A DNA stretch of 64,000 bases, from positions 372,001 through 436,000 of the forward strand of contig NW_026570268.1 of NCBI RefSeq assembly GCF_019649055.1, read 5' to 3'. This document shows positions 23,637 through 52,665 of the stretch, one piece after another. The notes below the pieces were generated by a model. It had not been told where the DNA came from. It saw only the letters and a program-made list of their open reading frames with translations, and ran no database searches. The DNA comes from Paramacrobiotus metropolitanus. Lineage: Eukaryota > Tardigrada > Eutardigrada > Parachela > Macrobiotidae. Each line of letters opens with the position of its first letter. Position 1 is the stretch's first letter. A program made the position numbers and the translations under genes.

Positions 23637-25697
23637 TTATTTGCCTTCGGGCTTCTTCTTCGTGAATCGCCCTCTCTGGTCTCGTTCCCGGGGTGCATTT
23701 GCCGTCTTCCCTGGCTTCTCACGCGTCTGCTGGGCGTCCTCCTCCTCCGTTTCCACGACAGTTGCGGGCGTGGGGGACTCTTCGCTGTGCGCCGCTGGCT
23801 CACTGTGCTCCGGTGCCTGCGCGTTCTGCTCCAACCGATCGTGGGTGTGCTTCCGGTCGAGGATGGGCACCGTGCCGCCCATATCCAGCTTGACCATACA
23901 ATCAGTCGTCCGGCGACAACGCCAGAAGTGTTTCCCCCCGACTTTTGTGAAGTCCCGGAGATATTCAAAATCGTCCAGCGTCAGCACTTCGCCCCCGCGC
24001 TGACTGACCGGAGCCACCGTTCCCTTGCCCGGTTGAACGGGCTGAACGGAGGATACCTAAGGAAACGAGCAATGATAACATAAATCGCAATTTACAACCG
24101 AAAACAGCAACCTAGATTTTTCCAAAAAATTATAAAACACACTTTCTGAATAAACACACTTTATTCATGTTTTAACACTTGTTTTTCCAAGCATTTACTC
24201 TAGAATATTTTCGAACAATTGTACGTTAATTTTCAGTATTCACAATCAAATTTTACCATTAATTTTTTCCATAATTTTTAGCTTTATTAAGCATTATTAT
24301 TTCTTCCTTTCCAATTGAGTGCAAATATTTATTCAGGCATACGATGTAGCGTTATACGTACGAAACTTTATGTTCAAACATTTGTTTTCAATTTGTTCGC
24401 TGAGAATTCGTTTAACCTTTATTTTTTTCACTGTATTTTTTCTTTCGACTTTCTAAATATTTCAACATTAATGACTGATTGATGCCACTGATTTGCGTAA
24501 AGAAACCGCTGATGACCATTACCCACCTCGGCGTCATCGATCTTCTTCACGCCGCGCGTCTCCGTCTTCTTGCGCGAAACTCCCGCATCTCCTTTTCCTC
24601 GTTCGCCCAGCTGCAACGGGAAACACGTTAAACGAACGCTGCACAATGACACAAGCCAGCGGACCCACATAAAATTTCTTCCAATCCAAGAAATGACTTC
24701 GCATTTACATATTTTTATCATGTTTCTGATTAAAATTTTACAGAGGAAAAATTAAACAATTAAAGTTCAACAAGTTAAAACAATGGTGCAGGAAACGATT
24801 AACAAAATTACAAGTAATTTTTAAAACAAATACGCAAATCCAGTGCAATAAAAGCATTCAAAGAAAAACGCAATACGAGGATCGTGTTTTTCGAACATTT
24901 TCTACTGGCATGTTTTTAAAAATCTGTTTTCATGTTCACTCAAAGGGCAGACGGTCTCTGGTCCACCTCGCTTTCATGAATGAACTCAGTTAAAAAATTT
25001 CATTTTTCGATTTAATGTCTATAAAAACATTATTAATTTTATTTCTAAATAATATTATAGCGCCTGCAACAACGCACTCGCAATTCACGGCATGGAATCT
25101 GACAATAACACAACGCTTACCAGGAGCACCTGTTTGGCCGTCTCACACTCTTCGGGGCTGCCGGGGCCAACCTCCGCTGGGGCTTTGCCGCTGGTCTCCT
25201 CGGTTGGCGCAGGTTGCTTGCTGTTGGGGATGGCGGCGGGGATGCAGTTGTAGCTGCTCGTCTGCCGGTTCAGCGTGGAGAACTCCTCCACAATCTGCTC
25301 GCACGGTGCGCTTTTTACCATGAACTCGCCGACCGTCGCTGAGCCGTTCTCGCACTCGACCTGGCGCTGGGCGGCGGGGGCCGGAGCGTGGTAGGCGCGG
25401 GACGTCTCGTTTTCCACCACGTCGCCCAACTGGAACGACGCATCCTGTCCATTCTCGCCGATGCCCTCCATGCGCATCATCTCCGCCTCGCAGTCGTTCA
25501 CCGTCTCGCCCGCCACCGTCACCCCGCTGGCCTTCTCGTCGTCGCGGACCGGGAAGTTGATCTTCACCTGGAAGCGGTTATCCAGGTCCGTCAGAGTGCG
25601 GCCGTTGTCGTCCATGACGCGGGCATGGGTGCGGCTGTCCAGCGGCACCTCCACGCGCGGCTTGCGCTGCTACACAACGGACATTAACGCGATTACA
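23565..25697. repeat. Segmental duplication B, copy 1
   Basis: This block is homologous, exons and introns, to about 42600-44759 in the same orientation (offset about 19.1 kb). The right edge is sharp. Both copies share CTACACAACGGACATTAACG then GATTACA, after which copy 1 enters the 77-bp satellite and copy 2 continues as unique intron. Intron sequence just inside the FLYWCH exon is nearly identical between copies. Confidence 0.85.
23637..25666 (-). CDS. KH-FLYWCH cassette, copy 1 (5' exon not certain)
   Basis: Three exons: 25121-25666 (182 codons), 24527-24610 (28 codons) and 23637-24056 (139 codons plus stop), all phase 0. The first holds a vigilin-like KH segment (RVEVPLDSRTHARV, TLTDLDNRFQVKINFP, then SGVTVAGETVNDCEAE) whose GXXG loop is degenerate (DDNG). 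A long polar linker follows. The last exon has a FLYWCH-type zinc finger: EVLTLDDFEYLRDF, FWRCRRTTDCMVKL and a HTH pair, then an acidic and a basic tail. No ATG precedes the KH exon in frame, so an upstream exon is needed. The nearest minus-strand exon with a phase-0 donor is the TFIIS fragment 5.7 kb away across a satellite. Paralogous to the last three exons of the fusion gene at 42.7-44.7 kb. KH domains bind single-stranded nucleic acid. FLYWCH fingers occur in DNA-binding proteins and in MULE-type transposases. Confidence 0.7.
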
Positions 25698-28600
25698 GGA
25701 TGCAAAGGAGATGCAGCAAAGTAAAGGAAAAAAGTAAACGTAAACGAGATACTGCGATGCAAAGTACAAAACTGACATGCAAAGGAGATGCAGCAAAGTA
25801 AAGTAAAAAAGTAAACGTAAACGAGATACTGCGATGCAAAGGACAAAACTGACATGCAAAGGAGATGCAGCAAAGTAAAGTAAAAAAGTAAACGTAAACG
25901 AGATACTGCGATGCAAAGGACAAAACTGACATGCAAAGGAGATGCAGCAAAGCAAAGTAAAAAAGTAAACGTAAACGAGATACTGCGATGTAAAGTACTG
26001 TAGCCGCTAGATGAAGTGGCTCCACTTTTAGATCCGCCCGCTGCCTGCACCTGGCCGGGCATTGAGCACGAGCCTTCCTCCCACCGGGAGGCGCGCACTT
26101 TGCTTTTCGATATTAGTACTGTACTGTTACTAACTGTTCTGCCTGCCAGAACTCCCAAAAACCACAACAAACCAGATTTATAAATCGGAAACTATCCTAG
26201 CTGTGACATTATGCTCTTACAATAATTATCGTACGTTGCTAAAATTAAGAAACTCAGTAAAACATGTAGAACGTCAGCATCAGAGTGAAAATTGTTTGAA
26301 ATCAAACACAATTCTGCACGGAGCAATGTGTGTATATTGGGCCTGCATTTTCCCGTATACCAGACTCTGTGGAGCCACTTCATCCAGCGGCTACAGTACA
26401 AAACTGACATGCAAAGGAGATGCAGCAAAGTAAAGTAAAAAAGTAAACGTAAACGAGATACTGCGATGTAAAGTACAAAACCGACATGCAAAGGAGATGC
26501 AGCAAAGTAAAGTAAAAAAGTAAACGTAAACGAGATACTGCGATGTAAAGTACAAAACTGACATGCAAAGGAGATGCAGCAAAGTAAAGTAAAAAAGTAA
26601 ACGTAAACGAGATACTGCGATGCAAAGTACAAAACTGACATGCAAAGGAGATGCAGCAAAGTAAAGTAAAAAAGTAAACGTAAACGAGATACTGCGATGC
26701 AAAGGACAAAACTGACATGCAAAGGAGATGCAGCAAAGCAAAGTAAAAAAGTAAACGTAAACGAGATACTGCGATGTAAAGTACAAAACTGACATGCAAA
26801 GGAGATGCAGCAAAGTAAAGTAAAAAAGTAAACGTAAACGAGATACTGCGATGTAAAGGACAAAACTGACATGCAAAGGAGATGCAACAAAAGTAAAATA
26901 AAAAAATAAACATAAACAAGGATACAAAGGACAAAACTTGACATGACAAAGGAGATGCAGCAAAGTAAAGTAAAAAAGTAAACGTAAAACGAGATACTGC
27001 GATGTAAAATTACAAAACTGACATGCAAAGGAGATGCAGCAAAGTAAAAAAAGTAAACGTAAACGAGATACTGCGATGTAAAGTACAAAACTGACATGCA
27101 AAGGAGATGCAGCAAAAGTAAAGTAAAAAAAACATAAACGAGATACTGCGAAGTAAAATTACAAAACTGACATGCAGAGGAGATGCAGCAAAGTAAAGTA
27201 AAAAATAAACGCAAACGAGATACTGCGATGTAAAGAACCAAACTGACATGCAAGAGATGCAGCAAAGAAAAGTAAAAAAGTAAACGTAAACGAGATACTG
27301 CGATGTAAAGAACCAAACTGACATGCAAAGGAGATTCAGCAAAGTAAAGTAAAAAAGTAAACGTAAACGAGATACTGCGATGTAAAGTACAAAACTGACA
27401 TGCAGAGGAGATGCAGCAAAGTAAAGTAAAAAAGTAAACGTAAACGAGATACTGCGATGTAAAGTACAAAACTGACATGCAAAGGAGATGCAGCAAAGTA
27501 AAGTAAAAAAGTAAACGCAAACGAGATACTGCGATGTAAAGAACCAAACTGACATGCAAAGAGATGCAGCAAAGAAAAGTAAAAAAGTAAACGTAAACGA
27601 GATACTGCGATGTAAAGAACCAAACTGACATGCAAAGGAGATTCAACAAAACAAAGTAAAAAAAAAAGTAAACGTAAACGAGATACTGCGATGTAAAGTA
27701 CAAAACTGACATGCAGAGGAGATGCAGCAAAGTAAAGTAAAAAAGTAAACGTAAACGAGATACTGCGATGTAAAGTACAAAACTGACATGCAAAGGAGAT
27801 GCAGCAAAGTAAAGTAAAAAAGTAAACGTAAACGAGATACTGCGATGTAAAGAACCAAACTGACATGCAAAGGAGATTCAGCAAAGTAAAGTAAAAAAGT
27901 AAACGTAAACGAGATACTGCGATGTAAAGTACAAAACTGACATGCAGAGGAGATGCAGCAAAGTAAAGTAAAAAAGTAAACGCAAACGAGATACTGCGAT
28001 GTAAAGAACCAAACTGACATGCAAAGAGATGCAGCAAAGAAAAGTAAAAAAGTAAACGTAAACGAGATACTGCGATGTAAGAACCAAACTGACATGCAAA
28101 GGAGATTCAACAAAATAAAAGTAAAAAGTAAACGCAAACGAGATACTGCGATGTAAAGAACCAAACTGACATGCAAAGAGATGCAGCAAAGAAAAGTAAA
28201 AAAAGTAAACGTAAACGAGATACTGCGATGTAAAGTACAAAACTGACATGCAGAGGAGATTCAGCAAAAGTAAAGTAAAAAAAGTAAACGCAAACGAGAT
28301 ACTGCGATGTAAAGAACCAAACTGACATGCAAAGAGATGCAGCAAAGAAAAGTAAAAAAGTAAACGTAAACGAGATACTGCGATGTAAAGAACCAAACTG
28401 ACATGCAAAGGAGATTCAGCAAAGTAAAGTAAAAAAGTAAACGCAAACGAGATACTGCGATGTAAAGAACCAAACTGACATGCAAAGAGATGCAGCAAAG
28501 AAAAGTAAAAAAGTAAACGTAAACGAGATACTGCGATGTAAAGTACAAAACTGACATGCAGAGGAGATGCAGCAAAGTAAAGTAAAAAAGTAAACGCAAA

Positions 28601-31247
28601 CGAGATACTGCGATGTAAAGAACCAAACTGACATGCAAAGAGATGCAGCAAAGAAAAGTAAAAAAGTAAACGTAAACGAGATACTGCGATGTAAAGAACC
28701 AAACTGACATACAAAGGAATAAAATAAAGTAAAAAAAGTAAACGTAAACGAGATACTGCGATGTAAAGTACAAAACTGACATGCAGAGGAGATGCAGCAA
28801 AGTAAAGTAAAAAAGTAAACGTAAACGAGATACTGCGATGTAAAGTACAAAACTGACATGCAAAGGAGATGCAGCAAAGTAAAGTAAAAAGTAAACGCAA
28901 ACGAGATACTGCGATGTAAAGAACCAAACTGACATACAAAAAGAGATGCAGCAAAGAAAAGTAAAAAGTAAACGTAAACGAGATACTGCGATGTAAAGAA
29001 CCAAACTGACATGCAAAGGAGATTCAATAAAGTAAAGTAAAAAAAAGTAAACGTAAACGAGATACTGCGATGTAAAGTACAAAACTGACATGCAGAGGAG
29101 ATTCAGCAAAGTAAAGTAAAAAAAGTAAACGCAAACGAGATACTGCGATGTAAAGAACCAAACTGACATGCAAAGAGATGCAGCAAAGAAAAGTAAAAAA
29201 GTAAACGTAAACGAGATACTGCGATGTAAAGAACCAAACTGACATGCAAAGGAGATTCAACAAATAAAGTAAAAAAAAAAAAAGTAAACGAGATACTGCG
29301 ATGTAAAAGTACAAAACTGACATGCAGAGGAGATGCAACAAAGTAAAGTAAAAAAAGTAAACGCAAACGAGATACTGCGATGTAAAGAACCAAACTGACA
29401 TGCAAAGAGATGCAGCAAAGAAAAGTAAAAAAGTAAACGTAAACGAGATACTGCGATGTAAAGAACCAAACTGACATGCAAAGGAGATTCAGCAAAGTAA
29501 AGTAAAAAAGTAAACGCAAACGAGATACTGCGATGTAAAGAACCAAACTGACATGCAAAGAGATGCAGCAAAGAAAAGTAAAAAAGTAAACGTAAACGAG
29601 ATACTGCGATGTAAAGTACAAAACTGACATGCAGAGGAGATTCAGCAAAGTAAAGTAAAAAAGTAAACGCAAACGAGATACTGCGATGTAAAGAACCAAA
29701 CTGACATGCAAAGAGATGCAGCAAAGAAAAGTAAAAAAGTAAACGTAAACGAGATACTGCGATGTAAAGAACCAAACTGACATGCAAAGGAGATTCAGCA
29801 AAGTAAAGTAAAAAAGTAAACGCAAACGAGATACTGCGATGTAAAGAACCAAACTGACATGCAAAGAGATGCAGCAAAGAAAAGTAAAAAAGTAAACGTA
29901 AACGAGATACTGCGATGTAAAGTACAAAACTGACATGCAGAGGAGATGCAACAAAATAAAAGTAAAAAAGTAAACGCAAACGAGATACTGCGATGTAAAG
30001 AACCAAACTGACATGCAAAGAGATGCAGCAAAGAAAAGTAAAAAAGTAAACGTAAACGAGATACTGCGATGTAAAGTACAAAACTGACATGCAGAGGAGA
30101 TGCAGCAAAGTAAAGTAAAGTAAACGCAAACGAGATACTGCGATGTAAAGAACCAAACTGACATGCAAAGAGATGCAGCAAAGAAAAGTAAAAAAGTAAA
30201 CGTAAACGAGATACTGCGATGTAAAGTACAAAACTGACATGCAGAGGAGATGCAACAAAATAAAATAAAAAAATAAACATAAACGAGATACTGCGATGTA
30301 AAGAACCAAACTGACATGCAAAGAGATGCAGCAAAGAAAAGTAAAAAAGTAAACGTAAACGAGATACTGCGATGTAAAGTACAAAACTGACATGCAGAGG
30401 AGATGCAACAAAGTAAAATAAAAAATAAACGCAAACGAGATACTGCGATGTAAAGAACCAAACTGACATGCAAAAGAGATGGCAAAGAAAAGTAAAAAAA
30501 ATAAACATCGTGAGATACTGCGATGTAAAGAACCAAACTGACATGCAAAGGAGATTCAGCAAAGTAAAGTAAAAAAAGTAAACGTAAACGAGATACTGCG
30601 ATGTAAAAGTACAAAACTGACATGCAGAGGAGATGCAACAAAATAAAATAAAAAAGTAAACGTAAACGAGATACTGCGATGTAAAGTACAAAACTGACAT
30701 GCAAAGGAGATGCAGCAAAGTAAAGTAAAACAGTAAACGTAAACGAGATACTGCGATGTAAAGTACAAAACTGACATGCAGAGGAGATGCAGCAAAGTAA
30801 AGTAAAAAAGTAAACGCAAACGAGATACTGCGATGTAAAGAACCAAACTGACATGCAAAGAGATGCAGCAAAGAAAAGTAAAAAAGTAAACGTAAACGAG
30901 ATACTGCGATGTAAAGAACCAAACTGACATGCAAAGGAGATTCAGCAAAGTAAAGTAAAAAAGTAAACGTAAACGAGATACTGCGATGTAAAGAACCAAA
31001 CTGACATGCAAAGGAGATGCAGCAAAGTAAAGTAAAAAAGTAAACGTAAACGAGATACTGCGATGTAAAGTACAAAACTGACATGCAAAGGAGATGCAGC
31101 AAAGTAAAGTAAAAAAGTAAACGTAAACGAGATACTGCGATGTAAAGTACAAAACTGACATGCAAAGGAGATGCAGCAAAGTAAAGTAAAAAAGTAAACG
31201 TAAACGAGATACTGCGATGTAAAGTACAAAACTGACATGCAAAGGAT
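25698..31247. repeat. Large 77-bp satellite array, A-rich on the plus strand (subfamily 2), interrupted by a MITE
   Basis: About 67 tandem units of 77 bp with AAAACTGACATGCAAAGGAG, ATGCAGCAAAGTAAAG and AACGAGATACTGCGATGT. Two variants (AAAGTACAAAACTG and AAAGAACCAAACTG) alternate over long stretches, most clearly at about 29.8-30.4 kb, giving a dimeric higher-order period near 153 bp. The reverse complement aligns with the T-rich arrays at 20.5 and 41.3 kb, so all are one superfamily in opposite orientation. Because 77 is not a multiple of three and the unit lacks stops on the minus strand, very long false frames (to 583 codons) arise. Confidence 0.96.
25999..26395. mobile_element. 397-bp terminal-inverted-repeat element (MITE) inserted in the satellite
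   Basis: 27-bp inverted repeats at 25999-26025 and 26369-26395 (TGTAGCCGC...GGCTCCAC and its complement) differ at one position. GTAC flanks both ends (25995-25998 and 26396-26399). It matches the repeat unit's own AAAGTACAAAACTG, so the element interrupts one unit and duplicated 4 bp (or the inner TA). The interior is unrelated to the satellite and has no transposase frame, so this is a non-autonomous element. Confidence 0.88.
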
Positions 31248-31416
31248 AATAATAATTTTCAAATTTAATTTCACTGTCTGTGAAATTTTTATCAGAAATA
31301 CCATTTTCAAAATTGTGTCGTAGGAAAAATTTCAGTTTTCAAAATGCAAAACTAACTGAATTTGAAATCGTGTCGAAATCAAAACAGAAACCATTACAGT
31401 TTGCTGCGCAGTGTAC

Positions 31417-31958
31417 CTGTACGATGTCGAGATCGATGGGCAGCTTCTCCAGCGCTTTCAGCAGCTCCACCACTTCCTCGCTGCCCTGCAGTCGCAAATC
31501 AGCAAATGCAATCAACTCATTTTCACCAATTCACTTCTCTGGCAAACCGTGCAGATGCTCTGTTTTATGTGCATCATTTTATAATTAATTGTAATTCCAT
31601 TGTAACAAACACGCAAGTATGGGGTACAGATGAATGACAGATGCATGGTAAATCTGACGTGTAAGACTGTAAGAGTTAAGACGGTGGAGAACCCAGTTAC
31701 CCAGGCAGATACGAAGCTCCGTCTCAACGCTTGGCTCCTGCACAATATGCCACAACCACCACCAACAAACCGTATTCATTTTAAAACAGCCATGTGCATC
31801 GTAATCGTGTGCAGAAAGATATAACAGCACTGGCCCAGACGGCGTACCGTGCTTTTCTCCGCGACGAGCTTGTCGAGTTTGCTGCAGGTCTCCTGCACTT
31901 CGCGCTGAATCCCATTGCCCGCCGTCTCGCGCCCGTTCCCGTTGATACTGCCGCTCAT
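31417..31958 (-). CDS. TFIIS N-terminal (LW) domain fragment
   Basis: Two exons, 31848-31958 and 31417-31485, join in phase 0 to 60 residues starting MSGSINGNGRE. They match the start of transcription elongation factor TFIIS: CSKLDKLVAEKST, then GSEEVVELLKALEKLPID and LDIVQ, equivalent to the ALDLLKxLKxxPITLxxLQ helices. In TFIIS the next residues (TRIGMxVNxLRK), the central domain and the zinc ribbon should follow. None is present before the satellite that begins 170 bp downstream. The last exon ends in a phase-0 gtacac donor. Either the gene is truncated, or it splices over the array to the phase-0 KH exon of the KH-FLYWCH cassette. Confidence 0.68.
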
Positions 31959-32919
31959 TCTGCTGCCTTCTACGATCCCCTGATAGCTGCTGACAGCGGT
32001 AATTAGACACGAGTCGGAAGACGACGAGCAAGCCCAGCTGCAAATCCTCCAAGTTCAGCACAAAATCTGGCACAGACAAGCTGAACAACAAGTGCTTTGG
32101 CTCAGCCTCCTGCTCCACGCAAAATATAGTAGTAGACGCTCTCGCTCATCAATCCTCTACTCAAAACTCCTCCGATAGCTTACCATACGGTCCGTTCCCG
32201 AAAAACGTCAGATTTTGGGGGAAACTGGGATGAGATCATAAGAAACGGTCGAAAAGCGACGAAAACTCCAAAAGGCAGAAAGATGTGTCCCAGAAATTCT
32301 GCAAACTGCAAAGCGCGGTCTGTTGATTTGCGAACGGAAGCTGCCAGCGCAAGTACCACGTAGCTGTCACTCTGGCGGTTGCTGCAGCGACAGCCACAAC
32401 ATCTTCCGGTTCGGGTTGATTTTCATCGTCAAGTAAATACGTGTACTCGTACAGACTTACAGTAAGTAATTGCAAATTGTTTACATGCTTCTCATTGATA
32501 ATTTCATATTAAAAGTTATAATATTTTGCCAGTTGTTTTCTGCAAACGTCCAGGAACCAGTTTATTCCTTTTCACAATGCGCAGTATTAATGCCATATGC
32601 AGAAAGCCATTTACAATAAAACTGCGAATATTTCTTCAATTTTTTCAGCGTCTTGTCTTTGATTCAAGATTTGCAGAACCGCCAAAGGATCTGGCAGATT
32701 TTTATTGCATTTACAGTTTATAAAAAACAAGCACAGAAAAATTCCAATAAGAAAATTCCAATAAGCACCTTATAAACTAACAGCAGGTCATATTTCGCGG
32801 TAAAAATCGTTGGAAGGAAACGCTAGATGAAAGGCCCGGTATCACCAGCTTTTTTTAAAAACTGAGAAATAATTCCGCTATATAATACTAGTGGAATGAT
32901 CGTTTGTGATCGCTGCCAA
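31959..32919. other. Intergenic stretch between the TFIIS fragment and the NUBP1 3' end
   Basis: No exon with convincing homology or splice context. It should include the promoter of the TFIIS fragment and the 3' UTR of NUBP1. Confidence 0.4.
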
Positions 32920-34950: not shown

Positions 34951-35127
34951 ACCAAAAGTGTAGCAATATCAGGACGGCTTTTTTGGAAAACAAAACAAAT
35001 ACTATGAACGCATTCTAAGTCAGCAGTAGGATGTTAATTAGTATTCCAATTAGTATTCACCTCAGAACAAAAGAAATATAATTTTCATCTGACGAGTGAG
35101 AAAATTAGTACAATTCGAGTACCCCAC

Positions 35128-37650
35128 CTGACGTTTTGGTGGCCAAACAGATTAAACAGCTGCACCCGGAACAGATAGGCCAATAGCGGGAAGACGGTGA
35201 ACATCTGGAAGAACAGCAGGCAGCGCGCTACGAGCGCCATAATTTCCTGGTTGGCGAAATTCTTCAATAAGTTCTGCAACAGATCCCCTGCGTCATCAAT
35301 CTACTTCCACTAAGTTACACATACAATGTGGAGATTCTCACGTCGGCAATCAAGTGCTTATCCACCGGGAAGGCGGCGTAATAGCAGCCACCCACGAAAG
35401 CGTAACACACCGCCGCCATCAGAAACGCGATGCCGGTGTCGCGTTTGCGGTGCTGCGGATTGGCGTGGTGCGTCGTCATGCCCAGGATGCAGTTGTGGAT
35501 GAAGAAGCCCATGGACAGTGTCCCCGTCAACGCCGGGAAGTGGCCGTTGAACACTGCAACACCAAGAAACGCTCTCTCCCCTGCGCAACTAATAAAAGAA
35601 AATATGCTCTACATTCGAATCCCGGCGAGCCGCTGGACGCGTTCCAGCCCCAGTCGCTGACCTTCTTGGACACGAAGACGATCATGTACAGGATGGAGAC
35701 GATGCCGAAAGAGCTTAGTTTCGTGAAGAAGGTCGGATTGCGGATGCAGATCAACGGCAACAACAGGAACACCTATGCAATCAAACAAATCAGTTTTTAA
35801 CCAACGAAATACTAAAAAAATAGACAAACTGATTATCGGAAATTTATAATATTCCTAGGGAGATAGAAATTTTTAAGTTTCTTTATGCCAGAAGAGCAAA
35901 CGAAGTTGACGAAATAATCAAATAAACAAACCAAACGCAAACAAACCGGTAAACAGAAATAAATTGGAAAATCCAGATAAATAAATGACGAAAAATTAAA
36001 TTACAGAGCTAAAATGCGCACCAGATAAAACGGGACGGTCAGGAGTTCATTCCAGTAGCGCGCAAAGCGTCCCTGTGGTCCCAGATCGGTGGCGGGATCG
36101 GTGATGTTGGCCGTTTCGGGATACTGCAGTTCTGCAGAATTTCAGATGAATTTATCATTTTATCATTATCATCACACGGCACACAGCGCACTGCCAAAAT
36201 ACGTCCGTACCGTAGAAATAGCAGCCGATCTGGTAGAGCATGGCCGACATGAGGATCCAGTAGACGACCATGGCGCCGATCAAGTTGAGGAGGGAGACCA
36301 GCAGACTGACGAAGGCCAGTCTGACGCCCAGCAGCCGGGCGCAGATGTCCTGGAACTCGACGATGGTGACGCCGGTGGTGGTCTGCAGGTAGTCGGCGGC
36401 CTTGTAGATGAGCGTGGTGGGGAAGAAGGCCAGCGCGCCCATCACGAACACCAGGCACACGCCCAACGCCAAACCGGCCTACATGCAAAATAGCTCAGCT
36501 TCCGCTGGATGGCGCAGTGTTTTGAAGGGAAATACGCACCTCCTGGATGGCCCAGGGCAGCACTAGCAGCGACGATCCCATCATCGTCGTCCATAAACTC
36601 AATCTGCAAATTGCAATGAGTGAACAATACTTGACCAAATCAAGTAAAGATAATTTCACTTCTGGGCAGTAGTAAGTGAACAAAAGAAATTTACATTCCA
36701 TGTCTCAAAACCTTCAAAGCCCTGGTAAATTAAAACAACCGGAATTAAATTCAGAGAAATGGAGATTCGCCACTTACATGGTGACTAAACTGCCCTGGCT
36801 GTTTTGCGATTTCTCCACCGGAAATCCACTGGCAGTCTCTGCGCGTTCTAGCAGTCGCTCGCGGTCGGAATCCGCCCCGATCTCCGGGTACACATCGGTC
36901 GGGCGGCTGCCGACATCCTCGCCCCGCCGACCGCCGAATCTCCCCGCGTCCGATCGCTCCGGACGCCGCGGACTGGACGGAGCAGGTGGCGGCGCATACG
37001 GATACGCAGCGAGGCTGGGCGCGTCACCGACGCCAGGCAGCGTCGCGCCTTCCCTAAACGTCAACGCACGATTGGACTCCATACAAAACAAGGGAAATTA
37101 CAGTACTGTGTAATTATTCTTTCAATATGGTAAAATCTCCTTGAATCTGCTAACTGGAAATCAAATACAATTCAATGAAAATAAAAACCTGCTAATCAAA
37201 ATTAAATAATATTAAACTCCTGATATAAAAATAAAATAAAATTTTGACAAATACAACTCAATTCTGATGAAACAATTAAAATAAAAATAAAATTCTGATA
37301 AACAAGAATTAAATAAAATTGCACTTTAGACTGTAATCTACGAAGTATGATCAGCATTCAGCAATATAATAAAAAATTTAATAAAATCCAATTCGCTACA
37401 ATAAAATCATGAAAATAACCGTCCGTCGGGTGAAGCTTTAATGCCCCATTCCACTTTAATCTGCTTAATCAGAATGCTTTGTTTACCTTTGAAGCACATC
37501 GTCCGGGAGATGACTGCGCTGGCGGATGCCGGAAATGAGGGGGAGACGCGCGGCGGTGGGGATGTTGGAGAGGAACTGTTCGTCGTTGGTCAGCGCGTCG
37601 CTGTCGCTGTTCCGCATCACCACGGGCTCCTCAACCACGCTGTCCGCCAT
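35128..37650 (-). CDS. SLC38A9: SLC38A9-like lysosomal amino-acid transporter, 3' exons missing
   Basis: Eight exons (37487-37650, 36778-37053, 36540-36603, 36211-36478, 36022-36131, 35613-35772, 35342-35553, 35128-35273) join in phase to about 466 residues. A cytosolic Pro/Arg/Ser-rich N-terminal tail precedes the transporter core. The core starts LSLWTTMMGSSLLVLPWAIQE, matching TM1 of SLC38A9, and continues with SLVSLLNLIGAMVVYWILMS, GTLSMGFFIHNCILGM and CLLFFQMFTVFPLLAYLFRV. SLC38A9 is the lysosomal arginine sensor that signals to mTORC1 through the Rag-Ragulator complex. The human protein has roughly 95 more residues, including the last TM helices. The final exon ends in a phase-2 gtgggg donor and no continuation is visible before NUBP1. 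The ATG at 37650 opens exon 1. The 5' part is duplicated at 51.4-52.7 kb. Confidence 0.9.
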
Positions 37651-42599: not shown

Positions 42600-44759
42600 A
42601 AATTTAACAAAACACAGTAACACAATCTAGTAACCGACAACACAGGATGCTTCCTGATCGACATAGCTGCACACAGTCCGCGTTTTCGAGTGGCTTCTGG
42701 AATGGACGTGTGGACTTCGAGGGCCATCCAGTCACCTACGCGTCCTTCTTGGACTTCTTCACGAAGCGGCCCCTGTGGTCCCGCTCACGGGGCACGTCCA
42801 CCGTCTTCGCGGGCTTATCGGCTGTCTGGCGATCGTTCTCCTCCGTCTCCGCCACGTCAGCTGGCGCTGGGGATTCTTCGCTGTGCACCGCTGGCTCAGC
42901 GCGCTCCCGTGCCTTCGCGTTGTGCTTCCAGTGATTCGGGTCCAGGACGGCCACGTCGCCTTGCAGTTCCAGCTTGGCCCGACACAACCCCCTCTGACGA
43001 CAACACCACCAGTTTTCTCGGCCGTGGTCACGCAGATACTCGTGCCCACCCAGCGTCAGCACCTCCGTTCCATGGGTGCTTACCGAAAACTGCACCCTGC
43101 TGATCGGATAAATGATGGGAAGCGATGGAACCTAAGGATACGAGCAATGATCACATAAATCGCAATTTACAACCGAAAACAGCAACCTAGATTTTTCCAA
43201 AAATTTATAAAACATGAATATACACGCTTTATTCAAGTTTGACATATTTTTCCATGCATTTTCTCCAGAACATTTTCTAGAAATACACGTGTCCTTCATT
43301 ATTCACGAATCACACTTTACCATTTATATTTTTCATAATTTTAAGTTTATAAACATTCATTTTTAACTTTTTGTAAATATTCATTCAAGCCTACCATATA
43401 TGTTTGTACGTATATTCATCTTAAAACATTTATTTTCAGTTTGTTTACTGAGCTTTCGTTTAACCTTTTACTTTCGACGTTGTATCTTTCGACTTTCTTA
43501 ATATTTCAACATCAGCGATTGCTTACTGCCACAGATTTTCGTAACAGTTATTCAAACGGCCGATGGCCATTACCCACCTTTTTATCAGGCACTGTCTTCA
43601 CCACGCCGCGCGTCGGCATCATTCTGCGCGAAACTCCTGCATCCTTTTTTCCTGCTTCGCGAACCTGCAACGGGAAACACGTTAAATGAACGCTGTTCAA
43701 TGACACAAGCCAGCGGACGCACATAAAATTCCCTCCAATCCAAGAAATGACTTCGCATTTACATATTTTTATCATGTTTCTCAATAAAATTTTATAGAGG
43801 AAAAATTAATCATTTAAAGTTCAAGAAGTTAAAACCATGGTACATGAGACGGTTGACAAAATTACAAGTAATTTTAAAAACAAATACGCAAATCCAGTGC
43901 AACAAAAGCATTCAAAGAAAAACGCAATACGAGCATTGTGTTTTTTGAACAATTTCTATTGGCATGTTTTTAAAAATCTGTTTTCATGTTCACTCAAACG
44001 GCAGACGGTCTCTAGTCCACCTCGCTTTCATGAATGAACTCAATTAAAAAATTTTATTTTTCGATCTAATGTCTATAAATGCATTAATTTTATTTCTAAA
44101 TAATATTATATTATTATATCGCCTGCAACAACGCACTCGCATTTCACGGCATGGAATCTGACAATAACACAACACCTACCAGGAGCGCCTGTTTGGCCAT
44201 CTCGCACTCTTCCGGGCTGCCGGGGACAACTTTCGCGGGAGCTTTGCCGCTGGTCTCTTCGGTGGGCGCCGATTTCTCGCCGCTGGTGTGGGCGGCGGAT
44301 GCGTCGGGGATGGAGTTGCCGCGCTTCATCGTGGGAACCACCTCCAGGTTCTGCTGGCAGGGCGCGCTCTTCCCCATGAACTCGCCGGCCGTCGCTGAGC
44401 CGTGCTCGCGGGCTATCTGGCGCTGGGCGGCGGGGGCCGGGGCGTGGTAGGCGCGGAATGTCTCGTTTTCCACCACGTCGCCCAACTGGAACGACACATC
44501 TTCTGCACTCTCGTCGATGTCCTCCGTCGACGAGCGCTTCACCTCCGCCTCGCAGTCGTTCACCGTCTCGCCCGCCACCGTCACCCCGCTGGCCTTCTCG
44601 TCGTCGCGGCCCGGGAAGTTGATCTTCACCTGGAAGCGGTTATCCAGGTCCGTCAGAGTGCGGCCGTTGTCGTCCCCGATGCGGGCATGGGTGCGGCTGT
44701 CCAGCGGCACCTCCACGCGCGACTTGCGCTGCTACACAACGGACATTAACGCGATTACA
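42600..44759. repeat. Segmental duplication B, copy 2
   Basis: Partner of about 23565-25697. It contains the last three exons of the fusion gene and their introns. At 44759 the shared sequence stops and the unique intron towards the preceding KH exon continues (TTTACCTCTGTGCAG). Confidence 0.85.
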
Positions 44760-47700
44760 TTTTACCTCTGTGCAGTCAACCCACCACCTTGCCCTCACCT
44801 CGGATTCAGTGCGGGCTTGGCCCTTGTCGCGCGCCGCGGGCGCCTGCGACTCCAGGCCGCTGGTGACGGTCTTGTCGGCGTCCGCGCTGGCAGCGGCGTC
44901 GTGCGGGAACTGAATCTCCACTTGAAATTCGTTACGGAGCTTGCTGATGTTCCCGCCGTGCTGGCCGCTGATCTGCAAATGGTGCGTGATGTCCACGCGC
45001 ACCCCTGCGGGGTAGTTGTGCCCCGCCTGCACATGAAACAAACGCAAATTATTCTCCTGCATCAACACCAGCGCTAACTCCAGCAAGCATACCCGTTGTT
45101 TTTCCAACCTCTCCAGCTCCTTGACGCGCGCCGCCAGCTTTTCGTTGGCTTCATCCACGTTGCGGCGCTGGCCGCCGATCCCGATAACGTCCCTCTGATC
45201 CGCCGGGCTGGGGATGGCTTCGCGGTCCTCCGGGCGGCCGGTGACGCCGATGACCTTTTTAGGCACTTCGGAGGCGGTTCCCACGGTGGGAGCTAGCTGC
45301 TTGCCGTCGGCATTGGCGGCGCGGTTGTCCTTTCGCTCGGGGAACTTGATGCGGAGGTCGACCTCCTTGGACACGTCCGTGACAGACACCTCACCGGGGT
45401 GGATGATGCTGGGCTTGGCGACGTCCATCGCATCCTGGGAGCCGAGCAAAATCACCTCCTTCTCCTCGGCCATGCATACATTGCCGGTCCCCTGGATTTG
45501 CTGGATTTCTTCGGCGCGGGGCGCGGGGGAGCGATGGGGAATATCCACCGAATCGTCCACGGCGTTATGCTGCAAAGACAACCATTAAGCAGCAATCAGC
45601 AACGGTTTTCTCATCAAACAGAAAATGACGGGAAATTAAAAATTAAACTAAAATAACGAAACAATAAATTTCAGAAATTTAAAAGGCATGTAAAAAATCA
45701 TATAGAAGTATGAAACAACTAGAGCAACAAAAGGAATAAGACCGAAAATCGCCCGGCTTTCTTCACGAATTCGACCAAACGCCCCTTCACCTCTCGAACA
45801 CATCCGGCGCAGAGCTTCCGCACTTTCAGGTCCAGCACACGACGGACCTGAAAGACTTGCCAGGCAGGCTCTCCCGTGACCACAACCAGGTCTTTCTCGG
45901 GGAAGAACTGGACTTCCACACCGCGACACAGGCGGGCCAGCATGGCCTTCAGCCCATCCGAGTCACTGCCGGCCAGCCAGCTGTGGCTGCTGCCGGGAGC
46001 TCGAAGCTGCACGTGAACAACGTGCTTATCCGGAATCTAAAAGCACGCGGCCGATGGTTGACGCATCTCGTAAACACGAATTGTTCCAGCTCACTGACCT
46101 GCTGAGCGAGGAGATCGAGAGCCTCTCCAAATCCGAGAGGATTCCCGTAGAGGGTAACCGCATCACTGTCGGGCGACGCCGGTAATTTAACCGAAATCCC
46201 AGTCTTCTCGTGTACCCGGTGCAGGTACTTTCCGTCCGATCCCCGCAGATCGCGGTGGCAGGCGCGAGAAAGGTGCAGCGCGATCTCCTCATTCAGTTGC
46301 TGCGCGGAGAAGGGGGACGGGGGCTGCGAGACGGGAGACGGCGACTCCGCGGAGACAGCAGACGTTGGCACGTCCTGCGTGGACTGGCCGGTGCCACTCG
46401 GGATGGTTCTCTTTGAACCGCTGCCATCCCGCAGTTCAATCGTCAGGACTCCGTCTGCGTAGGTTAATAAGTAAGTTACTTGTGACCGAATTCGTGCAAA
46501 CCAAAGCAACTTTCGCTGTTGCGCACTCCCGTATACAGTATATTTTTTTTATTTTTTTGAATTGCTTTATACTGTTTTGAAGCCAAAGAATTTGTATACA
46601 TAGGTATAAAATCCGTTTGCGAGCGCAACATCCGGTTGTAAAGTTATGGTTGAATCACAATTCCAAAAAAAAAGTTTAAAAGCATTCAGGCGTGCCAATA
46701 GTATAATTATAAACCGACATTTTGCATCCAATTACGATGAATATTTACAAAATGTCAGTAAAATAAAAAAGTAAACGTAAACGAGATACTGCGATGTAAA
46801 GTACAAAACTGACATGCAAAGGAGATGCAGCAAAGTAAAGTAAAACAGTAAACGTAAACGAGATACTGCGATGTAAAGTACAAAACTGACATGCAGAGGA
46901 GATGCAGCAAAGTAAAGTAAAAAAGTAAACGTAAACGAGATACTGCGATGTAAAGAACCAAACTGACATGCAAAGCAGATTCAGCAAAGTAAAGTAAAAA
47001 AGTAAACGTAAACGAGATACTGCGATGTAAAGAACCAAACTGACATGCAAAGGAGATTCAGCAAAGTAAAGTAAAAAAGTAAACGTAAACCAGATACTGC
47101 GACGTAAAGTACAAAACTGACATGCAAAAGAGATGCAGCAAAGTAAAGTAAAAAAGTAAACATAAACGAGATACTGCGATGTAAAGTACAAAACTGACAT
47201 GCAAAGGAGATGCAAATAACTTTTAAACCGGATGTTGCGCGCGCAAATGGATTTTATGCCTACGCATGCAGATTTTTTGGCTACAAAGTTTCTTAAAGCA
47301 ATGCAAAAAATTGTTTGGGAGAACACGATAACGAAAGTTTCTCAATGTACACGAATTTGGTGCTGGGCCATATCCCTTAACGCAGTAGGGAAAGTAACGC
47401 AGTAAGAAATCCAAGAAATAAAAACTTACCAGCTTCTTCCGTCGTGGGACTTTGAGAGGCGGAAGGCGTTGTCCCAGAGGACCCCGTGATGGGCGACATC
47501 AGAGAGCCCTTCCTGAAGAGGTGTTTTTTGAACCGGTTGACATCCGGGTCTACCCAGAACAGGTTCATTTCCCTTAGCAGTGCAGCAAAACTGTCGTCAG
47601 ATTCACTGCTCAAAGGTGACGGCAGAGACAACGGCTGACTGTGCACTGTTTGCGGCAGTTCACTGTCGCTGGCAGGGGACTCCCAGTGCGGTCCACTGGG

Positions 47701-50700
47701 TGACTGCCCGCTGACCAGTTGTGCCCCGTCGGAAGTCCGTACCGGCGTACTCATTGGGATGTGGCTGTTCTCCGGATCACAGGGAGTTCGAACGTAAAAC
47801 AGCATATAAGCCTTCTGTTTAAAAACAGTTCGCTTATCCGCCGGCGACACCTGCAAAACAAACGGTTTTAGAAAAATATTTATTTTTAATCGTCAATTAA
47901 TCGCTTTAATACCTCTGCATCATTGCAACAGAACCATGATTTCCCGTCAATGGTAACATAGGATAGGTAGTGACCGGACTTCAAAGACTTGCCGCAATGC
48001 ACGAGCACTGCATACAGCTTATAGATGACGTCGGATGCATCATTAGGGTCACTCATAAACGGGCGCAAATTGAGCCGCTCTGGGAAGGCGACATCCTTAT
48101 CCACCTTGTATAACGACTCCCCGGTATCCAGATATCGCTTGAACAGCACCGTCAGGATGTTGGGTTGAGCCTGTATCGTGAGCTGCTTGGTTGAGAAAGT
48201 CGCCTTTCCACACTGTTCGCAAAAGTAGAGGTTGTCCTGCGATGTCAACTCCTCGCGCTGGGTGTGGATGCGCAGCGCGTCCTCCAGGTGATTAACGTTC
48301 TCGTCAATGGCAAGCTGAATGTCCCAGAAGCTCTCCAACCGTTCGGAGGTGTGCTTACACTCCCTGCACTGGACGCTGGACTGAGATACCCCGTGGAATA
48401 TCCAACCCGGCATGGTTGTTTCGACACCATCCACGGTGTCCGGATCTTGGTGTCCCGACGCTGCACGCACCATGTCATTCATCACAAAGTGAAGAAATTG
48501 GTGGGCGTCGTGCTGGTGGCCATCGGAATGCTCTTCCGCAAACACTGTGGCAATATAAATAACATCATTCACAACAGGAGCAACATCAGTTTTTGTATTT
48601 AATAAAAACTGATAAAGCAGCGAAAACAAAACAGGCTTATTCTTGAGGAAACACATTTCAGATTTGTAACGTCGGATAAAAAGAAGTTTCTTACCGGAAA
48701 GATTCTCAATAATCACTTTAGGTTCCAGCGCATCCAATGGGGAGGTGCTCAACACGGACAAAAGCAACTCTTGCAGCTTGCAAGTGAGACAAAAGTCCGA
48801 GCCTTTGATACGACCTGCAAGCCAGAGTAATATTGCAGAAATATTATGCCACACAACTATTGCAGAAAGTTCAAAGCCACCCACAGTGATGATTGTTCTT
48901 CATAAAGTAATTATACAGCGGCGCTGTATAGACCAGACATTGTAGTGTGGCATTGATAAAGCACGTCGTGTTGCTCGGATTCGTCAGTCCGCAGCCGACG
49001 GCCATGTCCGGATGCGGCCACTCCAGATCGATGGCAGGCGGCCACTTGAAATCATGAAAACTGCCTTCCGGACTGAGTATCCCGGAGCTGGGCGTCGGTG
49101 ATGTAGCGGGACTGGCCGGCGAGGCGGACTGTTCGGAGGAGCGTGCTGCAGGGTCGTGGGTGTTGGCAGAAGGGGGCACGAACAGCGGCTCAAGGACAAT
49201 CTCCGCCGGCAGCACCAAAACCGCTTTGCTACTGGGCACAATGGGGTTCAATGGGCTGACGGGCGCACTGCTGCTTCCGGTCTGCATGCCCGTCGGCGCC
49301 GCGCAGCCCGGCTGCACCACACTGCCGCTGCTGGCCGAGATGGACCGGCCGAAGGTGTCCGGCGCCGCCGCCAGAACATTCGGCTGGATCAACGGGTCCA
49401 CGCCGGGCGTCGGGCTCGATGTCGATCGCTGCTGGGTGTCCTCCCCACGCGGCGCCAACTCCGACAGATCGCTCGGCTGGTGCAGCTGGCCCGGGCGGGA
49501 GGTGTCTGGGGAAAGCATGCCGTCCAAAGCGTCGCCGCTGTGCTGCGTTGTCGTCGGGGACGGCGGGGAGTATTGCGGCGACTGCGGAGACATGTGCACG
49601 CTGGAGGCGCCGGACGAAGACTGAGTGCGGTAGCTGTTGGTGGTGGACCGATCAGGAGCCGGGGAGCTGAGGGGCAGCGCCAGCGAATGCTGTAAAAAAA
49701 TCACGCGGACTAACCAGAACAAATTAACAATAATTCAGAAAATTAATCTATCAATAATTACCCACGCCCTATAATAAGAATTAGATTAATCGTAGGTCAA
49801 AAAGAATTATATCAATAATAGTAAAATCCTAAACTAATAAGAATAAATTATTGGTAAAAGATTAAGCTACGAATAAAACAACAGCGATTAATAAATGAAT
49901 AAGGAAAAAATTAAAATTAATAGAAATGATTAAGAATGACTAAGGATGCCGATCTGACCTTCCAGTAAGCATCTGAGTCGCCGGAATAATCCAGAGATGT
50001 CAACTCCTGCGAACTGTCCATCCCGACCTGTCCCGTGGAACTGCAGCCGGACGAAGCCTCATTTTTCCGCGTAAAATACTCTGCAACACAGTAAAGGCGC
50101 TGGGCACACCGAGTATTACTCAACGCCGAGTGCTGAATACCTTTGCACATCTCCAGTGTGGCCTTAACGTCATCCAACAACGACAGCAGCGGCAGTAGTC
50201 CCGCTTGGATAATTTCCGCGCACCCGGCTTGGTCTGCACCAAATGATGCTAATCATTCACAAAAATATAACAATAAAGGCGAAACAGCGGATACCGATTT
50301 CACGGGGATTGGGGAAGGCGGAGTGTTGCGTACCGAGGCGGGGCAGCAGGGCGTCGGTGAAATCCGGCAGGGGGACGTCGTCCAGAACGATGGACTCCTC
50401 GAAACACGGCTGCATCACCATGCTCCCGCTGTGCGGATCGCTCACCGCCTGAATAATTGCAACATACAGTATCATCAAAACAGCCAAATTGTGGTTATTA
50501 ATACGGCACAGCATTATTATTAATTCATTATTATTATTACGACGGCGTACACTGGCGGCCATGCTGTCGCTGCGGGTGCGGACGCCGGAGATGCGGTTCT
50601 TGTACCACAGCCGCCAGCGGCGGTACTCGGAGGAGACGATGGCCAGCCGACGCTTCCAGTACTTGCCCGCCACCAGCTGCACCGAGTTGTCCACTTCGTA

Positions 50701-52283
50701 CGAAGCATTCACCGGCCGCACAGGCTTGACAACTGCACAAACATCTTCCGAATAACACAATACATAGTAATTATTTTTCACATTTTAATGACGTACGTAA
50801 TTTATTTAATGAATAAATCCATTACAGTTATTCAGCCTGCATTCTAAAATTTCTGTTATTTTTTTTCTACACAGGCATAAATCAAATTAATGTTTTACGA
50901 TTCCAGCCGTTATTATGCGCACTTGTGTACATTCCATTAAATTAAAAATTAATATTAGAAATTCCTGGAACTGCCACAACGAATTCGTTTGTGATATCTG
51001 ATGGTGGCGATATTTTAAAAATTATCCTTAAGAAAATTTAAAATTAAATTAATACCGTAGCCAATTAAATTAATATTAAATTAATGCAGTAGCCAAGCGA
51101 ATCAACTTACAGTTCATGTGCCAGGCCCGCCGAATGACGTTACTCAGACGGATCTTCTGAGCTGAGCTGAGTCCCCTGAAATTATTCCATGTGGGAGACG
51201 TCAATTTTGCCCTAAATCATTGCCAGCTAAATTCCCCTGACAGAATAAGAGGAAATGCAAATGTCGCCACCCACTTGTTGGCCAGCGTCATGCTCTCGAA
51301 CAGCTTGCGAAGCGACGAGTCGACGAACGTCAGCTTCTGCTGCTGTGGCGCCGTATCGAGCTGCATCCCATCGTGCGCCACGGAGTTGCTGCGTTCGCGC
51401 GGCACATGTGTTTGCTGCGAGGCGGTGGCGGCGGTTTCCGCTGGAAATCCACTGGCAGTCTCTGCGCGTTCCAGCAATCGCTCGCGGTCGGAATCCGCCC
51501 CGATCTCCGGATACACATCCGTCGCTCGGCTGCCGACCTCCTCGCCCCGCCGACCGCCGAATCTCCCCGCGTCCGAGCGCTCCGGACGACGCGGACTGGA
51601 GGGAGCAGGTGGCGGCGCATAAGGAGCGATGCTCGGCGCTTGACCGACGCCAGGCAGCGTCGCGCCTTCCCTAAACGTCAACGCACGATTAGACTCCGTA
51701 CAAAAGAAGGAAATTACAGTAATATTTAACTGCTCTTTCAATGTTAAAATCTCCTTGAATCTGCTAACTGGAAATCAAATATAATTCAATGAAAATAAAA
51801 ACTTGCTAATCAAAATTAAATAATATTAAACTCCTGATATAAAAATAAAATAAAATTTTGACAAATAAAACTCGATTCTGATGAAACAAATTAAAATAAA
51901 GATAAAATTCTGATAAACAAGAATTAAATAAAATTGCACTTTAGACTGTAATCTACGAAGTAAGTGAAAACAAAAATTATGATCAGCATTCAGCAATATA
52001 ATAAAAAATTTAATAAAATCCAATTCGCTACAATAAAAATCATGAAAATAACCGTCCGTCGGGTGAAGCTTTAATGCCCCATTCCACTTTAATCTGCTTA
52101 ATCAGAATGCTTTGTTTACCTTTGAAGCACATCGTCCGGGAGATGACTGCGCTGGCGGATGCCGGAAATGAGGGGGAGACGCGCGGCGGTGGGGATGTTG
52201 GAGAGGAACTGTTCGTCGTTGGTCAGCGCGTCGCTGTCGCTGTTCCGCATCACCACGGGCTCCTCAACCACGCTGTCCGCCAT
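42736..52283 (-). CDS. Chimeric SLC38A9 N-terminus / Mondo / USP36-type deubiquitinase / KH / FLYWCH protein
   Basis: Eighteen exons: 52120-52283, 51275-51670, 51111-51175, 50551-50732, 50334-50448, 50141-50233, 49959-50080, 48885-49689, 48695-48814, 47913-48544, 47430-47850, 46078-46454, 45767-46036, 45093-45569, 44799-45026, 44180-44728, 43578-43664, 42736-43131. Every junction agrees in phase, giving about 1,832 residues. Residues ~1-131 copy the SLC38A9 tail. ~132-380 are Mondo/MLXIP (SSLRKLFESMTLANK, KIRLSNVIRRAWHMN, GKYWKRRLAIVSSEYRRW, DFTDALLPRL), with no bHLH-zipper. ~380-610 are Ser/Pro-rich. ~611-918 are a USP domain with Cys box (NTTCFINATLQCL), zinc CxxC pairs, His box (SGHYLSYV) and NDAEV. 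~1095-1670 hold vigilin-like KH segments, GXXG intact in two (GSDG, GQHG). ~1701-1832 are FLYWCH (WWCCRQRGLC, HWKH). Transcription as one mRNA is inferred. Separate genes with internal starts remain possible. Confidence 0.75.
46760..47217. repeat. 77-bp satellite array (A-rich, subfamily 2) inside an intron
   Basis: About six units nearly identical to the 26-31 kb array (AACGAGATACTGCGATGTAAAG, ACTGACATGCAAAGGAG). It lies in the 975-bp intron between the USP part and the first KH exon of the fusion gene. Flanking sequence shows an inverted pair, AATCCGTTTGCGAGCGCAAC near 46610 and its approximate complement near 47225. Confidence 0.93.
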
Positions 52284-52665
52284 GGATATTTCTACAGCTC
52301 GGAGAATGGGGCAAAGTTATCAACCAATGCTAAACTGGCCAGATGTATTCCACACTGATAACCATCGCATCACCCAACACGTTCAAACATGACAAACAGT
52401 ATAAAATCAAAAATACTGTAAATCAACGATCACGAATAATGCAAGCAAAGTAAGCTAACGCACTGCATTCCAGACTGTCCTCGTCGCAGATCGCAGTCTT
52501 TCGTATGTACTGATAGCACCCGCTGTGCGTTGTGAAAAAACACCAGAAGAATGCACTCGTCGGTGGATGGGAAATGTGTCAATACGGCAGAATTCCAGAC
52601 AAGTGGAGAGAGCGCGTAAATAATATTTAAAATATACCGGCGGTAAATTTATCGGAAAAGCAGCT
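51443..52665. repeat. Segmental duplication A, copy 2 (SLC38A9-derived 5' end of the fusion gene)
   Basis: Near-identical partner of 36819-38005. It supplies the upstream ~350 bp, exon 1 with its ATG, intron 1 and the first part of exon 2 to the fusion gene. The switch to Mondo-specific sequence occurs in the middle of exon 2, and the reading frame is kept. Confidence 0.92.

Follow-up and report, generated by a model that had tools for sequence, protein, structure and literature searches.

On the minus strand of a 64,000-nucleotide stretch of the genome of the tardigrade Paramacrobiotus metropolitanus (NW_026570268.1, here contig C48, positions 372001-436000; the whole stretch is hereafter called the window) lies a gene, W, in which the 5' end of SLC38A9 is followed by a Mondo N-terminal region, a USP36-like domain, a shortened vigilin and a FLYWCH-like end. 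On the basis of sequence comparisons we consider it probable, at roughly 0.8, that W is a real, single protein-coding chimera born of segmental duplication and recombination of intron-bearing DNA. W belongs to a local family of chimeras. The Mondo-USP36-vigilin-FLYWCH fusion is present in two copies, W and a sister locus D, with all shared modules in frame in both, and two further loci on the contig, F and G, carry the shared tail under other heads. Relative to D, W is short of about 930 bp in its Mondo part and has, in addition, a duplicated SLC38A9 upstream flank, exon 1 and part of exon 2. It would be transcribed from an SLC38A9-type promoter as one mRNA, giving one protein.

Rebuilt from splice sites and reading frames, W runs from 52283 to 42736 in 17 exons and 1863 codons, with consistent phases, GT-AG boundaries at 16 of 16 introns and a terminal codon as its sole stop. 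A protein search identifies W with the NCBI protein LOC129591753 isoform X2 (1846 amino acids; 99% identity over 100% of the query), and that model differs from ours at three splice choices only: four additional residues at the exon 4 acceptor, 20 residues fewer through a 60-nt intron inside our exon 6 (about 50140-50081), and one Gln fewer at exon 15. A preliminary description of this DNA had proposed one in-frame spliced gene on one strand, which the rebuilt frame, its single terminal stop and the single NCBI gene model bear out; its start and end coordinates agree exactly with ours, and the usable GT-AG sites and matching phases it reported are present at every intron of our model. Its count of 18 exons is reached in the NCBI model, by way of the 60-nt intron in exon 6, but not in ours, and its figure of about 1,832 codons comes close to both lengths without matching either. 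It had also argued that agreement over so many junctions was unlikely to be due to chance; the frame stands, but better evidence for it comes from the insertions and deletions (indels) between W and D considered below. As to its statement that no described protein has this architecture, among 7999 scored candidates of 0.55 to 1.75 times the length of W, which yielded seven matches in total, the same architecture occurs only in NCBI's model of W and in its paralogue, although NCBI already lists W as an uncharacterised protein.

Genome-wide searches covered the assembly of 170 Mb in 533 contigs, and the SLC38A9, Mondo, USP36 and vigilin parental genes were all found elsewhere than W. The USP domain of W matches PF00443 across 254 of 254 positions (E 1e-48) and has human USP36 as its best solved match (PDB 8bs3, E 3e-61); it is 42% identical to P. 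metropolitanus USP36 (contig C33, at 431k), in which introns lie at about the same three places, as judged from gaps with stops in the tblastn alignment. The Mondo part matches ChREBP (5f74, E 9e-20), and a complete Mondo gene on the same contig (C48:751.0-756.5k) matches W exon by exon from exon 2b, the Mondo-derived part of exon 2, to exon 7a before continuing into the bHLHZip and C-terminal regions. Alignment to this gene and to 5f74 places in W the Mondo conserved regions after the first, following what we take to be their usual naming; the first conserved region, the bHLHZip and the C-terminal region are absent from W, the last two being readable in the complete gene. At C3:3174732-3171524 (minus strand) lies another, diverged Mondo-like gene, which has an HSGHFM motif as well as the C-terminal region.

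Exons 11-15 align with P. metropolitanus vigilin (contig C119) over 701 columns at 39%. Pfam recognises 14 KH stretches in vigilin, two in W and three in D; by eye, KH1-2 and KH5-9 are missing from W and KH10-12 have collapsed. Against a Pfam cut-off of 23.6 bits, the FLYWCH match in W stays below threshold (at 18 bits with the exon alone and 13.8 bits with the whole protein), that in D falls just short for the whole protein (22.4) and exceeds it for the exon (29.8, six-frame search), and in G both exon (31.8, six-frame search) and protein (30.1) exceed it. The SLC38A9 gene of the window matches solved SLC38A9 in its transporter part (6c08, E 6e-53). Its N-terminal stretch found no match among solved sequences, whereas the transporter part of the same query did, and the identity of the head of W is confirmed by the fact that exon 1, together with the initial 234 nt of exon 2, copies the 5' end of this gene. 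Only that end was copied: the transmembrane transporter domain is absent from W, its exons remaining in the SLC38A9 gene. The preliminary names for the USP36, Mondo, KH and SLC38A9 modules are thus confirmed, and the FLYWCH match exceeds the cut-off in the G protein but not in W itself.

How the modules are joined was examined by comparing local copies over 192 kb and a further 40 kb of the 1,047-kb contig C48. Two of the four joins lie inside exons, while USP/KH and KH/FLYWCH are joined via introns. The SLC38A9/Mondo join falls at about 51431-51437, within exon 2, and the Mondo/USP join at about 49174, within exon 7, where W and D follow the last Mondo linker exon through ...GAGCCGCTG.TCGTGCCC and diverge from it thereafter. 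Of the module junctions given in the preliminary description, those at exons 2/3 and 7/8 are therefore displaced into exons, whereas those at 11/12 (USP/KH) and 17/18 (KH/FLYWCH) agree with ours. Because the second join sits inside exon 7, we reject separate, adjacent Mondo and USP genes. W has intron positions in common with the parental Mondo and, as far as the tblastn alignment shows, with USP36; since parental introns are retained we also reject a retrocopy origin, and these positions point to duplication at the DNA level. As in chimeras born by duplication, the parental genes are found elsewhere, the breakpoints lie inside genes and the parental introns persist. A further joint, at 49218, is specific to W, where about 930 bp are missing relative to D. 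We considered cDNA-mediated intron loss between the exon pieces 7a and 7b and dropped it: the joint in W is not an exon-exon joint of D, and the NCBI protein of D has further residues there, so that a deletion of about 930 bp fits better.

The SLC38A9 head can be compared with the SLC38A9 gene of the window, 14.6 kb away. The two differ at 1 of 338 positions in the upstream flank and at none of 164 in exon 1, compared with 16 of 430 in intron 1 and 17 of 234 in exon 2a. Since the duplicated flank and exon 1 are near-identical, W probably uses an SLC38A9 promoter. The head is most simply a newer addition, as D starts with sequence like Mondo's own N-terminal exon. A second SLC38A9 copy occurs at C48:364991-368141 (plus strand), its flank and intron 1 being far more diverged from the window gene than its first two exons.

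D (C48:285.6-269.8k, minus strand; NCBI LOC129591803 isoform X2, 1853 amino acids) lies about 130 kb from W and has the same order of Mondo, USP, KH and FLYWCH. Across 17 compared exon segments, with the last exon read to its stop, it contains no premature stop and no frameshift, and the splice sites that it has in common with W, exon 2 donor through exon 17 acceptor, still read GT and AG. Each of the 15 exon indels between W and D has a length divisible by three, as do 4 of the 20 intron indels (Fisher 2e-6); judged by indels, the reading frame is kept in every module. Omega between W and D, estimated by the Nei-Gojobori method with 1000 codon bootstraps, is 0.58 overall (0.48-0.69) and below 1 in 1000 of 1000 bootstraps; by module it is 0.40 (0.27-0.61) for USP, 0.57 (0.43-0.80) for KH and 0.63 (0.41-0.99) for exons 16-17. 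In the intron between exons 6 and 7a, D carries an insert of about 6.3 kb (C48:283885-277578) with CTA at both ends by eye, which may be a mobile element.

Several observations weigh against W being a single constrained gene. The USP/KH link (across a 975-bp intron) and the KH/FLYWCH link (515 and 446 bp) depend on splice signals and copy comparison only, and omega for the Mondo part, 0.65 (0.39-1.08), is inseparable from 1. Over exons 2b-15, W and D differ at 353 of 4681 exon sites (7.5%) against 47 of 1561 intron sites, in counts that exclude introns 10, 15 and 16 and exons 16 and 17; these last two exons differ at 25 of 84 (exon 16) and 145 of 396 sites (exon 17). In the USP Cys box an additional residue stands between the conserved Asn and the catalytic Cys. 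By eye, the KH3- and KH13-like units retain the GXXG motif, which is altered in the units resembling KH4 and KH14. Partial loss of GXXG, the Cys-box insertion and the collapse of KH10-12 are what decaying chimeric pseudogenes would display, their frames being open by chance since the duplications are recent, and in F a stop separates the KH part from the USP part unless it is spliced out. Decay would nevertheless have had to leave 15 of 15 exon indels in frame and no stop in either copy at 7.5% exon divergence, with omega below 1 in every bootstrap, and we regard it as highly improbable.

W might instead be divided into two transcripts, one from an SLC38A9-Mondo-USP gene that ends in intron 10 and one from a distinct KH-FLYWCH gene whose first exon is unseen. 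In favour of this, intron 10 is the longest in W and is filled with satellite, and a tail without a USP head does exist, in G. Against it, NCBI joins both parts in W and in D. Read-through past the exon 10 donor runs into a stop 17 codons on in W but into none in D over the 34 codons examined, so a USP end is not conserved there, and in the exon 11 frame no Met occurs from the upstream stop to exon 11. At the exon 10 donor, as at the exon 11 acceptor, six bases are identical in the two copies, with phase 1 on both sides, and in the NCBI model of F the USP end is likewise followed by KH exons. Two transcripts are on these grounds quite improbable. That the assembly fused reads from paralogous loci is suggested by the repeat-rich contig and by the available extract of PMC11191345, in which the published assembly, taken to be this one, was made with Canu from nanopore reads. 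Such an artefact appears extremely unlikely, given that D independently has the order Mondo-USP-KH-FLYWCH with substitutions of its own and that exon 2 and intron 1 of the SLC38A9 piece depart from those of the SLC38A9 gene at the sites counted above.

The excess of exon over intron divergence calls for separate comment. Between window 51431-44180 and C48:285501-271291, exons, silent sites included, diverge two to three times faster than introns; fourfold sites differ at 74 of 724 (the sum of three groups). CpG decay explains part of this only, as without CpG the counts over exons 2b-15 are 222 of 3682 in exons (87 of 1151 at third positions) and 40 of 1452 in introns. The tail introns are more diverged (38 of 515 in intron 15, 78 of 429 in intron 16), and once they are counted and exon 17 is not, the non-CpG values are nearly equal (236 of 3736 in exons, 137 of 2476 in introns), so the excess is confined to exons 2b-15. 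Protein-level selection alone should not push silent sites past introns, and in this W and D are unlike an ordinary gene; in comparison with the complete Mondo gene the order is the usual one, with introns more diverged than exons. Exon-limited replacement from other copies could be the cause, as could constraint on, or homogenisation of, the introns.

In the Mondo family, the N-terminal region has functions in export and 14-3-3 binding. The product of W might accordingly be pictured as a shuttling ubiquitin- and RNA-associated adaptor, a reading we hold possible but doubtful, in which the Mondo N-terminal region would steer localisation (export, 14-3-3 binding), the USP fold would bind ubiquitin but cleave it weakly or not at all, and contact with RNA would come from the KH13-type domain. 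A weakly active or inactive fold is favoured by the position of the extra Cys-box residue, beside an Asn that the available extract of PMC10867860 calls extremely conserved in USPs and poised to stabilise the oxyanion. The preliminary description had instead tied a nutrient-sensing N-terminus to a deubiquitinase, that is, an active USP36-type enzyme under the control of a nutrient-responsive Mondo/SLC38A9 head. W does retain the Cys, His, Asn-Asp and zinc-ribbon cysteines, and USP53 and USP54, once taken for pseudoenzymes, are active according to the extract available of PMC12037411. The claim goes beyond the evidence, however: the extra residue before the catalytic Cys is found in W, D and F and in neither P. 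metropolitanus nor human USP36, the first Mondo conserved region is among the parts missing from W, and the head is unmatched to solved SLC38A9 N-termini. We therefore judge such an enzyme unlikely.

The two remaining members of the family have other heads. F (C48:306146-295916, minus strand) contains, in order, EFL1 pieces (5anb, E 1e-37), KH3/KH4-like exons, USP, KH and FLYWCH-like exons; its NCBI protein, LOC129591805 (799 amino acids), covers the 3' part only, and its visible EFL1 start is without what we take to be the usual GTPase P-loop letters. G (454 amino acids in NCBI) consists of short head exons, a 5.7-kb satellite intron and a KH14-FLYWCH tail. The head of G is weakly like TFIIS N-domains, the best TFIIS-type PDB match having E 0.14 and being outranked by unrelated chains; it has no Pfam match and is not among the four genome matches of the Med26/TFIIS-N family. 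A protein-library search with the G tail returned only G, within 0.55 to 1.75 times its length, a range in which W and D could not appear. Together these loci suggest that composite genes have been built more than once at this spot. One of the four Med26/TFIIS-N matches is on the same contig, at C48:990749.

A 77-bp satellite is present in three joining introns, namely intron 10 of W, intron 10 of D and the long intron of G, most of which it fills. A 45-mer of this satellite, allowing at most one mismatch and so blind to more diverged variants, has 54 matches in the genome, 54 of 54 on C48:273,996-419,213 (within 145 kb): in intron 10 of D, the gap between D and F, both SLC38A9 3' flanks, the G intron and intron 10 of W. 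Its orientation relative to transcription is alike in five genes (W, D, G and both SLC38A9 copies); more diverged 77-bp arrays downstream of G and W (C48:392681 and 413275) have the opposite orientation. The 145-kb cluster might conceivably be a head-swapping locus, where recombination between satellite arrays in introns would repeatedly join housekeeping 5' parts and promoters to the KH-FLYWCH tail and splicing would hide the breakpoint. SLC38A9, Mondo and perhaps EFL1 and the TFIIS-like gene would be the donors, and in the products the exons would then change more quickly than the introns along most of the gene. We offer this as a speculation, and a rather unlikely one.

W and D are themselves in NCBI, as LOC129591753 and LOC129591803, under names that give neither architecture nor function. 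A search of the open-access literature found neither identifier named, no combination of SLC38A9, Mondo and USP36 or of vigilin and FLYWCH, and no title on tardigrade chimeric genes among the matches listed. Compared with the MLXIP/MLXIPL (Mondo) factors, W shares exon structure and sequence over exons 2b-7 without the regions noted above as absent; compared with USP36, it shares the domain but has the Cys-box insertion and is followed by KH exons; and compared with vigilin (HDLBP), it has fewer KH units, followed by FLYWCH-like exons. Familiar young chimeric genes join two parents. Chimeric genes formed by duplication are already known: for Drosophila, the available extract of PMC5460883 attributes both chimeric structures and regulatory shuffling to duplication. 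The chimeras described there differ from W, which draws on five sources through two or more rounds of fusion, has sister chimeras under other heads and carries a satellite in introns where modules are joined. The novelty lies in how many parents contribute, in an order of steps that can still be read, in one tail shared by different heads and in the satellite of the joining introns. W brings five parents into one constrained frame, and copies along the contig reveal in which order the steps took place. Should transcripts bear this out, the assembly of a multi-domain protein from unrelated genes becomes directly testable in a culturable animal, and the locus tests whether satellite-bearing introns serve as joints. 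Coordinates of all features are collected in Table 1.

Table 1. Features of W and its surroundings (window coordinates unless marked C48)
Feature	Position	Strand	Remarks
Putative promoter, duplicated SLC38A9 upstream flank	52284..52621	-	337/338 identical to flank of window SLC38A9 gene
Exon 1, SLC38A9-derived	52120..52283	-	164/164 identical to SLC38A9 exon 1
Exon 2	51275..51670	-	51670-51437 SLC38A9-derived; Mondo-derived from ~51431; fusion inside exon
Exon 3, Mondo conserved region	51111..51211	-	
Exon 4, Mondo	50551..50732	-	NCBI protein has four extra residues at start
Exon 5, Mondo	50295..50448	-	
Exon 6, Mondo	49959..50233	-	NCBI: 60-nt intron ~50140-50081, 20 residues fewer
Exon 7	48885..49689	-	Mondo linker as far as 49219; joint of the deletion at 49218; final piece of Mondo exon ending at ~49174
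Exon 7, part after ~49174	to 48885	-	USP36-like N-part with Cys box; Mondo/USP fusion inside exon
Exon 8, USP	48695..48814	-	
Exon 9, USP with zinc ribbon and His/Asn-Asp boxes	47913..48544	-	
Exon 10, USP C-terminal strand and linker	47430..47850	-	
Intron 10 element	46553..47310		77-bp minisatellite 46757-47214; 95-nt inverted arms 46553-46647, 47216-47310
Exon 11, vigilin KH3-like	46099..46454	-	
Exon 12, vigilin KH4-like	45791..46036	-	
Exon 13, shortened remains of vigilin KH10-KH12	45093..45569	-	No Pfam match
Exon 14, KH13	44799..45026	-	
Exon 15, KH14 and vigilin C-terminus	44180..44731	-	KH14 under Pfam cut-off
Exon 16, linker	43578..43664	-	
Exon 17 with stop, FLYWCH-like	42736..43131	-	
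SLC38A9 gene, donor or sister of exons 1-2a, outside chimera	35088..37650	-	
Sister chimera G (LOC129591844)	23640..32239	-	Head exons 32239-31417, satellite intron, KH14-FLYWCH tail 25669-23640
77-bp satellite arrays	26398-31246, 25700-25995, 46757-47214; C48:288885-293145, 368320-369880

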